A DNA stretch of 64,000 nt, taken from NCBI GenBank assembly GCA_001447805.1, contig CP013099.1:744001-808000 (forward strand). The letters run 5' to 3'. The notes below the pieces were generated by a model that was given only the letters and a program-made list of their open reading frames with translations, searched no databases and was not told the origin of the DNA. Source of the DNA: Candidatus Tenderia electrophaga (GTDB lineage Bacteria; Pseudomonadota; Gammaproteobacteria; Tenderiales; Tenderiaceae). A program made the translations under genes and the position numbers. Below are positions 1,036 through 14,548 of the stretch, in pieces. Positions within the stretch are counted from its first letter, which is position 1; each line of letters opens with the position of its first letter.

Positions 1036-1053
1036 CATTACAAAATTGTAATG
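1036..1053. promoter_or_regulatory. Probable CopR/CusR operator (CATTACAA-AA-TTGTAATG)
   Basis: Two perfect 8-bp arms are separated by AA in the space between the divergent copR and copA genes. CusR/PcoR/CopR boxes are A/T-rich dyads with a TGACAA/TTGTCA or TTACA/TGTAA type core, which this fits. It would control copA-copB and perhaps the regulator itself. No other copy was noticed in the window. Confidence 0.6.
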
Positions 1054-4084: not shown

Positions 4085-5137
4085 ATGAAAATACTGCTGA
4101 CAGTGGTAATGACTGTGTGGGTGTCGGCGGCGGCCACGGCCACCGCATCCCCGTTTATGTACGTGCCCACGGGTGACGCCGATGATCTTGTCGTCATCGA
4201 TCTCGATGAGGATAAAGTCGTCGGGCGTATCGGTGAACTCGAGAACGCCCATGGTCTGGCGGCCAGTCCAAACAGCGAATACCTGGTGGCAGGGAGCATG
4301 CAGCCTGTGGAGGGCGGTGCTGCGGAGGATATGTCTAAGCCGGCCTCAGTGAGCGAGGATGAACATGCGGCCCATCATGCCGGTGGTGATGCCGCCGCCA
4401 TGAAAAGCCCCGCTTATCTCTCCATCATCGAGCCCAGGCGCGGTCATGTGATACGCCGCGTCGCCGTGCCTGCGCTGGCGCATCATACGGCGATATCGCC
4501 CGACGGGAAGCACGCCATTGCCGTGCACTCCGGCGCGGGCGGTATATCCGTTGTTGACCTGAACACAATGGAGGCCGTGAAAACCATCCAGACCGGGGCA
4601 TTGCCTAACTATGCTGTATTCAGCGGCGACGGCAGGTACCTCTACGTCTCCAATGCCGGAGCGGGGAGTGTCAGTGAGATCGATACGCACGACTGGCGCA
4701 TCAGGCGCCAACTCACGGCGGGTAACGGGCCGGAGCACCTGGTGTTGTCCCCTGACGGTGCCCGCCTGTTTGTGGCGGATGTCGATGACGGGACTGTGAT
4801 CGGCGTGAATCTGAAAAGCGGCGCGTTGACAAACCGTTTCGACGTCGGTGCCGAGCCGCACGGCATCGATATCTCTACAGATGGGCGCTGGTTGTTCGTA
4901 TCCAGCAAAAGCGATCAGACCTTGAGCCGGATCGATTTGACCGACAACAGTGTGGGCAAGATCGATCTTCAGCCCGCACCCTATCACGTTGTCTATGTCG
5001 CCGCAGTGAGCAAACTTTATGTCTCCAGCCGCGAGGCTGCAAAGATTTGGGTGCTCGATCCCGCCGGCATGAACGTTGTCGCTGAGATAGATATCGGCCG
5101 TGGCGTTGCCCATCAGATGGTGATACGGCCGCAATGA
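4085..5137 (+). CDS. Exported YVTN/SMP30-type beta-propeller protein
   Basis: A 350-residue protein with a signal peptide (residues 1-22, ending TATAS) followed by repeats with the beta-propeller pattern (VYVSNAGAGSVSEID, LFVADVDDGTVIGVN, LFVSSKSDQTLSRID). An insertion at about residues 71-108 carries acidic residues, His and Met (EDEHAAHHAGGD) and could bind metal. ATG 4085 has GGGCGGG upstream. It follows the tiny membrane protein closely and overlaps merR by 4 bp (ATGA), so both are in one operon. Such propellers are periplasmic; a copper-binding or electron-transfer partner role is only inferred. Confidence 0.8.
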   Translation: MKILLTVVMTVWVSAAATATASPFMYVPTGDADDLVVIDLDEDKVVGRIGELENAHGLAASPNSEYLVAGSMQPVEGGAAEDMSKPASVSEDEHAAHHAGGDAAAMKSPAYLSIIEPRRGHVIRRVAVPALAHHTAISPDGKHAIAVHSGAGGISVVDLNTMEAVKTIQTGALPNYAVFSGDGRYLYVSNAGAGSVSEIDTHDWRIRRQLTAGNGPEHLVLSPDGARLFVADVDDGTVIGVNLKSGALTNRFDVGAEPHGIDISTDGRWLFVSSKSDQTLSRIDLTDNSVGKIDLQPAPYHVVYVAAVSKLYVSSREAAKIWVLDPAGMNVVAEIDIGRGVAHQMVIRPQ

Positions 5138-5595
5138 AGCACTCGCGCTTGAAGGTCGGCGAACTGGCCAGGCGATCGGGGGTGACCGCTGAAACCGTTC
5201 GTCACTACACCGACAAGGGTTTGTTGCGTCCTGAGCGGGATTCCGCCAACGGTTACCAACTATATCCGGAACAGGATATCGGCCGTGTGCGCTTTATCCG
5301 CCGGGCCAAGCAGCTCGGTTTCACGCTCAGCGAGATTGGCCGGCTGCTGGGTTATGCGGAGCGCGGCACGTCGCCCTGCCCGGAAGTGCGGGACCTGGTT
5401 CAGGCAAGGATCGTGGAAAACCGGCGCAGGTTACAGGCCCTGACGGCGCTGCAGCTGCGCCTGGAACAGGCATTGAATGTTTGGCGGGCGCTCCCCGACA
5501 AGGTGCCCGACGGCGACTCCATTTGTCATCTGATTGAAACGGTTACGGAAATTTCCGATGAAGGGGTTGACCTCGGGGTTACCCCCAGGTTCTAG
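5134..5595 (+). CDS. MerR-family metal-responsive transcription activator
   Basis: The 153-residue protein has the MerR winged-helix domain (KVGELARRSGVTAETVRHY, then YQLYPEQDIGRVRFI) and a long dimerisation helix. Cys82 (SPCPEVRDL) sits where divalent-metal sensors such as ZntR, MerR, CadR and PbrR have Cys and where CueR-type Cu(I) sensors have Ser. Cys131 (DSICHLIE) matches the C-terminal loop Cys. The intermediate loop Cys seen in ZntR or CueR is absent. The ATG overlaps the upstream stop (ATGA). Its 3' end contains a MerR-type promoter facing the next operon, probably its target. Metal specificity is unresolved. Confidence 0.88.
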   Translation: MKHSRLKVGELARRSGVTAETVRHYTDKGLLRPERDSANGYQLYPEQDIGRVRFIRRAKQLGFTLSEIGRLLGYAERGTSPCPEVRDLVQARIVENRRRLQALTALQLRLEQALNVWRALPDKVPDGDSICHLIETVTEISDEGVDLGVTPRF

Positions 5596-5598
5596 AAT
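5567..5598 (+). promoter_or_regulatory. MerR-type promoter/operator with 20-bp spacer inside the 3' end of merR
   Basis: The -35 TTGACC (5567-5572) and -10 TAGAAT (5593-5598) are 20 bp apart, the over-long spacing that MerR-family activators correct. The spacer holds the dyad ACCT-c-GGGG-tta-CCCC-c-AGGT (5570-5590), centred on 5580. The merR stop codon TAG is part of the -10 element. It should drive transcription of the DUF547 gene (5632) and the genes after it. Confidence 0.8.
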
Positions 5599-5631
5599 CA
5601 AACATCCGCCGTAGGGCTCAAGTGACGTGAC

Positions 5632-6432
5632 ATGTTAAGGATTTTATTGGCGATATCGGGACTGGTCATGGTCGGCGCCGCCGCGGCCGGCGATGTCGCC
5701 CGCTTTAATACCCTGTACGGGGAACTGCTGCAACGGTATTGGCGCCCGGCGGTGACCATCAACGGCGTCGAGACCACGGTCTTCGATTACGCCGCCATGC
5801 AGCGCGAGGCCGGACCGCTGATGGACGACATCGCCGACACCCTGGAGGCGATCGACCCCGCGGCGATCGAAGACCCGGACGAACGCAAGGCCTTCTGGAT
5901 CAATGTCTACAATTTTACCGCCATGCGCATGGTGATCGACGCCTACCCGGTCGATTCCATCACCAGTTTCAAGATCAGCCTGATCAAGCATCCCTGGTCC
6001 AAGGATGCAATCAAGGTGGGCGGACGCGACTACAGTCTGAGCGAAATCGAAAAAGAGGTGTTGCTGCAACGCTTCGATGACCCGCGCATCATCTTCGCCG
6101 TCAGTTGCGCGGCGGTGAGTTGCCCCGACCGCAGCGCGGAGCCCTTTGCCGGCGAGCGCCTGGATGCCCGGCTTGACGAACTCATCAGGACCTTTTTTCG
6201 CAACCCCGCGAAGGGTCTCTCTTTAAACCGCCAGACAAATACCTTGACCCTGGCTTGGATACTCGAGAAGGACGACTATCTTTTTGAAGAGTACCCGGAT
6301 GGGGTACTGGGATTCGTCAAACCTTATCTTGATGCCGGGCAACGCGCCTGGCTGGAGACGCATCCGGCCCGGCTCGACTACTTCGATCATGACTGGACGC
6401 TCAATGACCTGGCGCAGGCCGATGGCAGGTGA
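5632..6432 (+). CDS. Exported DUF547 protein
   Basis: A 266-residue protein with a short signal peptide (hydrophobic LLAISGLVMVGAAAA). The body carries DUF547 signatures: FWINVYNFTAMRMV in the middle and IIFAVSCAAVSCPDRSAEPF about 60 residues later. DUF547 has no established biochemical function; a papain-like fold has been suggested for relatives. It is the first gene after the MerR-type promoter and precedes the Met-rich protein, so it is probably metal-induced. The ribosome site before ATG 5632 is weak. Confidence 0.82.
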   Translation: MLRILLAISGLVMVGAAAAGDVARFNTLYGELLQRYWRPAVTINGVETTVFDYAAMQREAGPLMDDIADTLEAIDPAAIEDPDERKAFWINVYNFTAMRMVIDAYPVDSITSFKISLIKHPWSKDAIKVGGRDYSLSEIEKEVLLQRFDDPRIIFAVSCAAVSCPDRSAEPFAGERLDARLDELIRTFFRNPAKGLSLNRQTNTLTLAWILEKDDYLFEEYPDGVLGFVKPYLDAGQRAWLETHPARLDYFDHDWTLNDLAQADGR

Positions 6433-6498
6433 AGCAAGTGGTAACCACGGAGGAATCGCGCTGCGGCGGATTCAAACACGATGACCAAGGAGATCGCT

Positions 6499-6960
6499 AT
6501 GAAGACAATGATGGCACCGATGATTCTGGGGCTCGCCCTGGCCGTTCCCGGCGCCTATGCCGATGACCGCCACCACTCAGACAAGGCGGGGGGGCAAGGC
6601 CAAGGGATGGGACAAGACATGGGCATGATGGACATGGAGCAGATGCAAGAGCGCATGCGCGAGATGCAACAGATGATGGACCGCATCAACAACAGCGACG
6701 ACCCGGAGGAGCGTCGGCGCCTGATGCAGCAGCACATGGAAAAGATGCACCGGATGATGGGCAAGATGAACAAAGGCATGATGATGCAGGGCGATGGTGC
6801 CATGGGCATGAACGGCGATGACAAGGCGGCCGGCATGTCCATGGAGCAGCGGCAGCAGATGATGGAGAAACGCATGGACATGATGCAGGGCATGATGCAG
6901 CAGATGATGGAACAGATGATGCAACAGCAGCGCCACGGTCCGGGCGGAATGAAGAAGTAA
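6499..6960 (+). CDS. Methionine-rich periplasmic protein, probable copper/silver binder
   Basis: Signal peptide KTMMAPMILGLALAVPGAYA is followed by about 130 residues dominated by Met, Gln, Glu, Arg and His, with repeats such as MMDMEQMQERM, MREMQQMMDRI and MQQMMEQMMQQQ. MMxxM and MxxxM spacing on a helix is a known way to bind Cu(I) or Ag(I). A few His residues follow the signal (DDRHHSD). ATG 6499 is chosen over 6481 because AAGGAG lies 8 bases before it. The protein is low-complexity, so no family name is safe. Co-transcription with DUF547 and DUF2933 is likely. Confidence 0.78.
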   Translation: MKTMMAPMILGLALAVPGAYADDRHHSDKAGGQGQGMGQDMGMMDMEQMQERMREMQQMMDRINNSDDPEERRRLMQQHMEKMHRMMGKMNKGMMMQGDGAMGMNGDDKAAGMSMEQRQQMMEKRMDMMQGMMQQMMEQMMQQQRHGPGGMKK

Positions 6961-6962
6961 CT

Positions 6963-7166
6963 ATGGATGCCAGACAAAAAGCACCATGGTGGCGTTCACG
7001 TAGCGGAGTTGTGCTGCTCGGCTTTACCGCGGTGGCGGGGTTCTTCCTGTTCAGCGAGCACCGCGCCCATGCGCTGGGTTGGCTGCCGTGGCTGATCCTG
7101 CTCGCCTGCCCCTTGATGCATCTGTTCATGCACGGCGGCCATGGCGAAGAGCACAAGCATGACTGA
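6963..7166 (+). CDS. DUF2933 small membrane protein
   Basis: A 67-residue protein with two hydrophobic segments (GVVLLGFTAVAGFFLF; LGWLPWLILLACPLMHLFM) and a His-rich tail (HGGHGEEHKHD). The pattern SEHRAHALGWLPWLILLACPLMHLFMHGGHG is the DUF2933 family signature, here noted in parts (CPLMHLFMHGGHG). These proteins are found in heavy-metal and copper clusters; function is unknown. The His tail may bind metal. It begins 2 bases after the Met-rich gene and overlaps the methyltransferase start by 8 bases. Confidence 0.8.
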   Translation: MDARQKAPWWRSRSGVVLLGFTAVAGFFLFSEHRAHALGWLPWLILLACPLMHLFMHGGHGEEHKHD

Positions 7167-7812
7167 AACCGCGCCCGCCTACGGCCTGTGGTCGCTGGTG
7201 ATCATCAACTCGGCGATCTTCATCTTCTTCGCCTTCAGCTTCTTCAAGCCGCAGAGCAAACGCGACTGGCGCAGCTTCGGTGCCTTTTCTGCCTTCCTGG
7301 TAGCGTTGTTCACCGAGATGTACGGCTTTCCTTTGACCATCTATTTTCTCTCCGGCTGGCTGCAGAGCAATTACCCGCAAGTGGACTGGCTCTCCCACGA
7401 TGCCGGGCATTTGCTGGAAATGATATTCGGTTGGAAGGCCAATCCCCACTTTGGGCCGTTTCATATCCTCAGCATGCTATTCATCGGCGCTGGTTTCTGG
7501 TTGCTCGCCGCCGCCTGGCGCGTGCTGTATAAAGCCCAAAAAACCGGCACCCTGGCGACCGAAGGACCCTACGCCCGTGTTCGTCATCCCCAGTACATCG
7601 GCTTCGTCCTGATCATGTTCGGCTTCCTGCTACAGTGGCCGACCATCCTGACGCTGCTGATGTTTCCCGTGCTGGTCTACATGTACCTGCGGCTGGCGCG
7701 TTATGAGGAGAGGGCGGTGCGGGCAGAATTTGGTGCCGTCTATGACCGTTATGCCGCGCGCACACCAGCGTTTCTGCCGCATCTGCGGCTTCACAATCGG
7801 GCTGAAATGTAA
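7159..7812 (+). CDS. Isoprenylcysteine carboxyl methyltransferase-like integral membrane protein
   Basis: A 217-residue multi-pass protein. The C-terminal half has the ICMT/PEMT-type motif GPYARVRHPQYIGFVLIMFG, with the R-H-P-Q-Y cofactor-binding core, then a second element (RYEERAVRAEFGAVYDRYAA). The N-terminal half carries MYGFPLTIYFLSG, shared with the paralogue at 22824. ATG 7159 is preferred (GAAGAG 8 bases upstream) over 7141. Bacterial members often accompany copper or mercury genes; their substrate is unknown. It ends the first metal operon. Confidence 0.8.
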   Translation: MTETAPAYGLWSLVIINSAIFIFFAFSFFKPQSKRDWRSFGAFSAFLVALFTEMYGFPLTIYFLSGWLQSNYPQVDWLSHDAGHLLEMIFGWKANPHFGPFHILSMLFIGAGFWLLAAAWRVLYKAQKTGTLATEGPYARVRHPQYIGFVLIMFGFLLQWPTILTLLMFPVLVYMYLRLARYEERAVRAEFGAVYDRYAARTPAFLPHLRLHNRAEM

Positions 7813-11429: not shown

Positions 11430-11552
11430 ATGCCGCGAAAATACGAATACACTAGCCCCCGCAAGTTGCCGGCGAACACGACGATGGATCGCCGTTCTGG
11501 CGCATCGATCCCGGTATCGACACGGCACCACTATCCTGATTCCGGAATTTGA
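11430..11552 (+). CDS. Possible small basic protein, 40 residues
   Basis: ATG at 11430 is preceded by AAGGAG at a distance of about 10 bases. The product (MPRKYEYTSPRKLPANTTMD and so on) is basic, polar and has no signal peptide or membrane helix. It ends 14 bases before the start of the fusion gene. No family was recognised; it could be a leader peptide or chance frame. Confidence 0.3.
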   Translation: MPRKYEYTSPRKLPANTTMDRRSGASIPVSTRHHYPDSGI

Positions 11553-11566
11553 AGAGGAGTAACGCC

Positions 11567-14548
11567 ATGGCACCCAAGGGAGATATCGTCCTGATCACCG
11601 GCGCCGCCGGCCGCATCGGGGATGCGGTGATGCAGCGTTTGAAACAACGCTTCGACAACGTCGTCGGTTTCGAACGCAAGGCGCCCTCTCCGCCGCCGCC
11701 CGACTGTGTCTACATACCGGTCGACCTTACGTCGGACGACAGCGTGCGGGAGGGGCTGCGCGTGCTGCGCGCGCACCACGGCGGCCGCATCGCCAGCGTG
11801 ATCCATCTAGCCGCCTATTTCGATTTCCTCGGCAAGCCGAGCCCGAAGTACGACCAGGTCACGGTCGAGGGCACGCGCCGCCTGCTGCGCGGCCTGCGCG
11901 AGGGCGGCTTCGAGGTCGAGCAGTTCATCTTCTCCAGCACCATGCTGGTGCACCGGCCGGGCGAGCCGGGCCAATTCATCACCGAGGACTGGCCGCTGGA
12001 GCCGACCTGGGCCTATCCCGAGTCGAAGGTGCGCACCGAGAAACTCATCCGCGCGGAGCGTGGTGATATTCCCGCCGTGCTGCTGCGTTTCGCCGGCGTC
12101 TACGACGACGTCTGCCACTCGCCGCCGCTGGCACACCAGATCCAGCGCATCTACGAGCGCCAGCTCGCCGGCCACCTCTATTCCGGTGAGACCTCGCACG
12201 GCCAGGCCTACCTGCACCTGGAGGATGCAGTGGACGCCATTGAGCGGGCCGTGGAGCGTCGCGGGCAATTGCCGCCTGAGTCTGTGTTTCTGATCGGCGA
12301 GCCGGAGACGCTCAGCTACGACGAACTGCAGCATACCTTCATGCGTTTGATCCGCGGCGAGTCGTCGGAGACGCATAACGTCCCCGGGCCCATCGCCAAG
12401 GTGGGTGCCTGGGCGCAGGGTCTGCTTCCCGGGGAACAGTTCATCAAGCCGTGGATGATCGACCGGGCCAACGACCACTATGCGCTCAACATCAGCCGCG
12501 CCCGCGACGTGCTGGGCTGGGAACCGCGCCATACGCTGCGCAAGTCGCTGCCGAAAATGGTGGCCGCGTTACAGGCCGACCCGCTCGGCTGGTACCGCGA
12601 GCACGGCCTGGAGTTGCCCGCGTCTTTGGAGAAGAAAGAGGAAACGCCCGCCCGGTCCGAAACGGTCGCCGCGCCGGGCTGCCACTTGCATAGCTGCCCG
12701 ATGCATCCCGAGGTCTGCCAGTCCTCGCCCGGCAACTGTCCGCGCTGCGGCACCGCCCTGGAGCCGGCGGAAACCGCCGACGCGGCGGAGGCGGCCGAGT
12801 ACACCTGCCCCATGCACCCCGAAGTCGTGGCCAGTGAACCGGGCCGCTGCCCCAAGTGCGGCATGGCACTGGAATCGCGCAGCGTGCCGTCCGAAGCACA
12901 AGGCGAACATCACGCACATGACGAACACCGCGAACCTGATGCGCAGGACGCGCACGCCGGCCATCGGCATGCCCGGCCCGGTGGAGGCCAGGCGACCGAA
13001 TACACCTGCCCCATGCACTCGGAGATCGTGCGCAGCGAACCGGGCAGTTGCCCCAAGTGCGGCATGCCCCTGGTGCCGCGTGACGCCGGGGGCAATGGGC
13101 ATGCGGGGCACGGGCACGATGGCGGCGACATGATGGTCGAAAGCCATCGCAACATGCTGTGGCCACATTATCTCAACCTGATGCTCGGCCTGTGGCTGCT
13201 GACCAGCCCGTTCACGCTCGGCTACATGAGCGACTTCGCCCCCGACGCCAACCAGCTGCGGGTCATGGCCGAACGTGACCTGGCGCCGTTCGAGCTGCGC
13301 AACCTGCTGATGAGCTGGAGTGATGTCATCAGCGGTGTCCTGGTGATCGTCTTCAGCGCCCTGTCCGCGGACGCCTGGCGCCGCAACCCCTGGGCGCAGT
13401 GGGCCAACGCCTTCGTCGGCCTGTGGCTGCTGTTCGCGCCGCTGGTGTTCTGGACGCCGTTGCCCGAGGCCTACGCCAACGGCACCCTGGTCGGCGCGCT
13501 GGTGATCGCGCTGTCGGTGCTGATCCCCATGATGCCGGGCATGAGCATGGCCGGCATGATGGGCAAGCCGGACGTGCCGCCGGGCTGGGCCTATTGCCCA
13601 TCGACCTGGCTGCAGCGCATGCCCATCGGGGTGCTGGCGCTGATCGGGTTTCTGATTTCCCGTATTCTCGGCGCCTACCAGCTCGGCCATCTTGATGGTG
13701 TCTGGGAGCCGTTCTTTGCCGGCGTCGGCGAGAAGCAGGGCGTCATGAACGGCACCGAGACCATCATCACCTCGGATGTCTCCAAGGCCTGGCCGATCGC
13801 CGACGGCGCGCTGGGCGCCATCGTCTACACGCTCGAACTGGTGATGGTCTGGATGGCCGGCAAGACCCGCTGGCGCACCATGCCGTGGATGGTGCTGGGC
13901 CTGGCCATCCTGATCCTGCCGCTGGGCGTGGTGAGCATCTATTTCGTCATCATCCAGCCGATCGTGATCGGCACCTGGTGCAGCCTGTGCCTGATCGCCG
14001 CGCTGGCGATGGCGGTGATGATCCCCTATTCGCTCAACGAGTTCGTCGCCATGGGCCAGTTCCTGGTCTGGGCGCGCAGGCAGGGTAAACCCTTCTGGCG
14101 TACCTTCTGGACCGGTGACGCCATGGACGGCGGCAGCGACGATACCTCAAAAGGGCTGGCCGCCACGCCCCGCGAGCAATGGGCGCAGGCCACCCGCGGC
14201 GTGACCTATCCCTGGACGCTGCTGCTCAGCATCGCCATCGGCGTCTGGCTCACCTTCACGCGGCTCAGCTTCGACAGCGCCGGCGCCATGGCCGACAGTG
14301 ATCACCTGGTCGGTCTGTTGGTGGTGACGTTCACCATCATCGCCCTGGCCGAGGTTGGGCGCGCCACGCGCTTTATCAACATCCCGTTTGGCATTTGGCT
14401 GATCGCCGCGCCATGGCTGCTCGACGGCGTCGCCTCGTCGGCGGCGGTCTGGAACAGCGTGATCTGCGGCGCGCTGCTGATCGTCCTGGCCATCCCGCGC
14501 GGGCGGATCAAGGACTCCTATGCGGACTGGGACCGGTTTATTGTTTAG
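11567..14548 (+). CDS. Mosaic protein: NAD-dependent epimerase + three metal-binding motifs + SPW/VKOR membrane domains
   Basis: 993 residues. Residues 1-335 are an extended SDR: the NAD motif TGAAGRIG and the catalytic-type YPESK near residue 150. Residues 371-505 hold three copies of the heavy-metal-binding motif (SCPMHPEV-x-CPRCGTAL, TCPMHPEV-x-CPKCGMAL, TCPMHSEI-x-CPKCGMPL) with a His-rich spacer. A membrane part follows: a first SPW domain ([26 protein letters not shown]), a VKOR-like segment with the redox pair WCSLC near 804, and a second SPW domain to the end. ATG 11567 has GAGGAGT upstream. The metal motifs are usual in copper or silver efflux proteins. It could be a redox- or metal-linked membrane enzyme; its substrate is unknown. 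Confidence 0.85.

Follow-up and report, generated by a model that had tools for sequence, protein, structure and literature searches.

The window, a 64,000-nucleotide stretch of the Candidatus Tenderia electrophaga genome (contig CP013099.1, positions 744,001 to 808,000 of the forward strand), carries merR1, which encodes a MerR-family metal regulator of 153 aa. This gene follows copA (multicopper oxidase), copB, and a gene for a YncE-like beta-propeller, and it is succeeded by genes for a DUF547 protein, a Met-rich protein, a DUF2933 protein, and a methyltransferase (Table 1). Because the stop codon of the YncE-like gene overlaps the start codon of merR1, the regulator gene is left without an intergenic promoter of its own. 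The four downstream genes are joined by short or overlapping junctions, and this operon has no P-type ATPase gene of its own. GTAAT half-sites have been reported for CopR, CusR, and CzcR (PMC11195947), and the perfect palindrome upstream of copA is perhaps a CopR/CusR-type box, a putative driver of the genes up to merR1. Elsewhere in the window, positions 11549 to 14548 are occupied by one long ORF in which an NAD-epimerase-like domain, CPMHPE metal-binding repeats, and membrane segments are combined in an unusual fusion; the membrane segments are VKOR-like as judged by eye.

Table 1. Features of the merR1 locus (coordinates of the window)
Feature	Position	Strand	Basis or remark
Perfect 18-bp palindrome CATTACAAAATTGTAATG	1036..1053	none	Between divergent OmpR-type response regulator gene (261-947, -) and copA (1115-2923, +)
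YncE-like beta-propeller gene	4085..5137	+	Stop overlaps merR start (ATGA)
merR1, MerR-family metal regulator, 153 aa	5134..5595	+	Pfam MerR_1 and MerR-DNA-bind
-35 hexamer TTGACC	5567..5572	+	Sequence; relatives share it at their merR edges
Operator dyad ACCTCGGGGTTACCCCCAGGT	5570..5590	none	Centre 5580; centre common to 42 distinct family sites
-10 hexamer TAGAAT	5593..5598	+	Sequence; TAG is the merR stop
Expected transcription start, ~+7 after the -10	5605..5605	+	Promoter geometry only
DUF547 protein, first gene past the promoter	5632..6432	+	Domain match; conserved in L018 (behind the site) and L019 (behind merR2)
Met-rich secreted-type protein	6496..6960	+	ORF list; gene context
DUF2933 protein	6963..7166	+	Domain match
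PEMT/ICMT-type methyltransferase	7159..7812	+	Domain match

At the 3′ end of merR1, the -35 and -10 hexamers are separated by a 20-bp spacer (5573 to 5592), and the merR stop codon (5593 to 5595) doubles as the TAG that opens the -10. The 21-bp dyad is complementary at 9 of its 10 flanking positions, with a C/C pair at ±6 as the sole mismatch. The sequence-only reading had described this combination of hexamers, spacer, and dyad over the merR 3′ end, with the stop TAG forming part of the -10; the coordinates proved exact, and the ORF at 5134 to 5595 confirmed the position of the stop. The palindrome pattern matched once in the window and not at all in 100 dinucleotide shuffles. When 9 or more of the 10 dyad positions had to pair, the pattern TTGAC[CT]-N19/20-TAnnnT likewise occurred once in the window and in none of 300 shuffles, and relaxing the dyad threshold to 8 or more pairs gave 0.003 matches per shuffle. 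When the full pattern was searched across the 3.76-Mb genome with up to three mismatches, only the window site and one paralogous site were recovered; the reversed-pattern control gave no match across the same genome. A third, weaker near-match, TTGACC-TGGGTGTTGCACTATGGAGA-TAGGAT, was noted at C1:2553471-2553502 on the minus strand (locus L082), preceding a gene for a small His-rich membrane protein near YHS-domain genes; the paralogous copper operon is ~17 kb away. The defining feature of MerR-family metal promoters is a palindrome within a 19- to 20-bp spacer (PMC1526738). The window promoter has both the 20-bp spacer and the palindrome in it, with a cognate merR nearby and metal-handling genes downstream. 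The comparative evidence strongly supports a MerR-type promoter. The promoter is of a known type, and only its position inside the end of the regulator gene is uncommon.

MerR1 itself is, from its sequence, a MerR-family heavy-metal regulator. It combines a MerR helix-turn-helix domain with a MerR-DNA-bind domain, the domain composition of metal-sensing MerR proteins (COG0789). Its scores against the models for mercury MerR (TIGR02051; 93 bits, curated cut-off 150.85), ZntR (TIGR02043; 84.9 bits, cut-off 167.95), CadR/PbrR (TIGR02047; 75.1 bits, cut-off 151.45), and CueR (TIGR02044; 70.2 bits, cut-off 147.4) all lie below the cut-offs, so that its branch is left unnamed by these models. Among the 28 to 29 relatives compared, Cys82 is invariant and Cys131, which we take to correspond to C126 of MerR, is nearly invariant; the equivalent of the middle metal-binding cysteine is absent. 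In the effector loop, the first cysteine of the CueR/MerR loop is missing while the Cys82 equivalent, typically absent from Cu(I) sensors of the CueR kind, is kept. With Cys82 and Cys131, MerR1 has at least two of the three metal-binding cysteines used to delimit such regulators (PMC1526738). In the predicted structure, pLDDT exceeds 90 in most of the core; the last two blocks have values of 62 and 41, in that order. Residues 145 to 153, which are encoded by the operator, belong to this low-confidence tail, which can plausibly vary freely; the C-terminal codons of merR1 are apparently dispensable.

We next consider the site across the family. A pattern scan across the class (369 Gammaproteobacteria) gave few matches, being too strict for the family, and loci were therefore collected by protein; this genome scan yielded 59 loci, nearly all from Gammaproteobacteria. 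With sites chosen as TTGAC[CT]-N19/20-TAnnnT and no dyad requirement, a promoter was present at a merR edge in 46 of 60 merR loci, compared with 12 of 5,210 control intervals. It lay on the 5′ side in 39 cases and on the 3′ side in 7, the latter count taking in two Mariprofundaceae/Zetaproteobacteria loci on which we do not rely (L057 and L058; TTGACC over the merR stop, -10 TAAAGT, poor dyad). The 42 distinct family sites share one fixed dyad centre, with a mean of 7.1 of 10 positions paired there and no alternative centre above 3.4, and their spacers are of 20 bp (32/42) or 19 bp (10/42). Double changes that keep the symmetry were observed at ±3 (T-A in 27 sites, A-T in 4, G-C in 3), and a covariation shuffle test gave 300 observed against 278 ± 5 expected, a result that ignores relatedness and is only supportive. 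In Alteromonas macleodii, the same promoter lies 5′ of merR in the merR-copA-cupredoxin-DUF2933-ICMT cluster, and two Rhodocyclaceae bins (L020 and L023) have separate promoter copies before the DUF2933-methyltransferase genes and before a copA-type ATPase gene. Nine Alcanivorax loci (L059, L061-L063, L065, L067, and L069-L071) had no site at either merR edge, and betaproteobacterial plasmid relatives (Acidovorax and Variovorax) had no clear site near merR. The Alcanivorax proteins are nevertheless members of this MerR branch and relatives in the tree.

The dyad is also a GC-rich inverted repeat at the end of a gene, as a transcription terminator or an mRNA hairpin would be. However, no T-run follows it, it was absent from the output of the terminator scan, and the RNA fold of the region was no better than that of shuffles (z 0.06); on these grounds the reading was rejected. 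In most relatives, the same dyad is found upstream of merR, flanked by corresponding -35 and -10 boxes, and we regard a terminator or hairpin as very unlikely.

A promoter at the merR 3′ end, an arrangement that the sequence-only reading had suggested seeking in related genomes, was found outside the window in L006, L018, L019, L020, and a Methylophaga pinxianii plasmid (NZ_CP095734.1; L095). L006 is a paralogous locus of the same genome (C1:2.57 Mb) with the order YncE, MerR1, promoter, MerR2, Met-rich protein, P-type ATPase (CPC motif), DUF2933 protein, and methyltransferase. Its MerR1 is 53 to 54% identical to that of the window, and its operator, within the promoter TTGACC-GTGGTGTTGCACCAAGGTTC-TATACT, lies wholly past the MerR1 stop codon, starting 18 nt after it. 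In L018, also from Candidatus Tenderia, the promoter is identical to that of the window at 27 of 32 positions (84%) and forms the best-conserved stretch, compared with 295/408 (72%) in the core gene, 16/25 (64%) just before the promoter, and 22/33 (67%) just after it. The whole promoter lies inside the L018 ORF, where a 1-nt indel places the operator in another merR reading frame. The merR stop TGA falls inside the -35 TTGACC in L019 and L020 and inside TTGACT in L095. The pattern could alternatively reflect a conserved functional C-terminal peptide of MerR, since a '-D-GV-PRF' reading runs over the site in both the window and the paralogue. This stretch, however, lies past the stop codon in the paralogue and in another frame in L018, the ORF ends at the -35 in L019 and L020, and the MerR1 tail is of low confidence in the structure model; we consider a peptide extremely improbable, and the L018 frame shift, which contradicts it, led us to reject it. 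Conservation of the dyad under changing merR 3′ codons had been proposed beforehand as a test of the promoter, and the site passed it with the shifted frame of L018 and the post-stop operator of L006. Judged from these alignments, the conserved entity is the DNA and not the peptide.

The description of the promoter as built into merR holds for the window, where the overlap is real, but not for the family, in which the site is normally 5′ of merR and the 3′ placement is lineage-specific and occurs in few genomes. In the tree, the four Tenderia-lineage MerR1 proteins group together (92/92) and L020 is placed elsewhere, which makes two or more origins of the 3′ placement probable. The gene order is YncE, promoter, merR in L042, L045, and L053; YncE, merR1, promoter, merR2 in L019 and L006; and YncE, merR1, promoter, DUF547 in the window and L018. 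Since the next gene in both L019 and L006 is merR2, the site probably represents a normal operon promoter, bordered or overlapped by merR1. In the simplest account, which we infer, a copy of merR ended up between YncE and the old operon promoter, with two loci subsequently losing merR2; a tandem duplication can only be presumed, as the tree does not settle the relation of MerR1 to MerR2. In L019, an extra half-site CACCCAGGT after the promoter (~5432-5490) forms a long-range inverted repeat with the left arm of the promoter. A limited literature search found no published case of a regulator gene with its operator located in its own 3′ codons.

These gene orders also bear on which regulator acts at the site. 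A second regulator, MerR2 of the paralogous operon, may act at the window promoter as well. The promoter may even be real but mainly regulated by MerR2 or by another MerR-family protein, with MerR1 as a co-regulator, competitor, or passenger. The operator of L019 and L006 immediately precedes merR2, as is usual for the family; a MerR DNA-binding domain is present in both proteins, and operators of a similar kind are found before both types of gene. By contrast, the window and L018 have no adjacent merR2 and yet keep MerR1 with the operator, and MerR1 has both Cys82 and Cys131, whereas MerR2 of L006 lacks Cys131. We regard control chiefly by a protein other than MerR1 as unlikely.

The best reading is that of a metal-activated MerR-family promoter through which MerR1, bound to the dyad, very probably controls the DUF547, Met-rich, DUF2933, and methyltransferase genes, as first proposed from the sequence and in line with the retention of the dyad as merR codons change; we infer binding, activation, metal, and start site. 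A MerR1 dimer would bind the dyad between the over-spaced -35 and -10, keeping RNA polymerase in an unproductive complex when metal is absent. With metal present, it would distort the DNA and make the 20-bp spacer functional, and transcription would begin near 5605 and proceed into the four genes. In most relatives, the promoter would drive merR and its targets jointly from 5′ of merR; in the window, merR1 appears coupled to the YncE-type gene and no longer behind the promoter. Because it lies upstream, merR1 should not be co-induced by the promoter, and the loss of co-induction by a merR placed ahead of its operator is a measurable prediction. The overlap might itself be a control device, in which operator-bound MerR and trapped polymerase block polymerases finishing merR and limit MerR synthesis without an operator before its gene. 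As the merR stop lies inside the promoter, roadblocked merR transcripts would then have no stop codon. We consider such a device quite improbable. Copper is the likely inducer, because behind this promoter the downstream genes are repeatedly found together with genes for CPC-type copper ATPases, and silver or another soft metal is possible; since the cysteine pattern is unlike that of CueR, the case for copper specificity comes from the gene context. The comparison defines an operator, roughly TTGACC-tgtGtGnngCaCctaggtt-TAnnnT, for an uncharacterised MerR subfamily, together with its likely regulon of DUF2933, Met-rich, and ICMT-type genes in marine copper clusters. It also provides an example of an operator retained while the overlapping reading frame changes.

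Among known systems, the golTSB gene arrangement of Salmonella resembles the window, with a MerR-type regulator, GolS, and a downstream target in the same locus. Control of this target by GolS has been reported (PMC8264917). The ZntR promoter of zntA likewise has a 20-bp spacer with a dyad, but its palindrome is ACTCTGGAGTCGACTCCAGAGT (PMC1526738) and its downstream genes are different. The CueR/HmrR copper promoters (E. coli copA and cueO) share with the window the ACCT...AGGT outer arms, an over-long spacer with a dyad, and downstream copper genes (PMC1526738). They differ in their inner arms (TTCC...GGAA, compared with GnG...CnC in the window family) and in their spacer (19 bp, compared with mostly 20 bp), and the window regulator differs from CueR in having the Cys82 equivalent, lacking the first loop cysteine, and scoring below the CueR cut-off. 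The merR-copA-cupredoxin-DUF2933-ICMT clusters of Alteromonas and relatives are copper-induced, with merR and copA rising together (PMC8478169). Their MerR is 38% identical to that of the window, and they have the same promoter type along with DUF2933 and methyltransferase genes. In these clusters, however, the promoter precedes merR, which is co-induced with copA, whereas in the window merR comes first and no ATPase gene follows.
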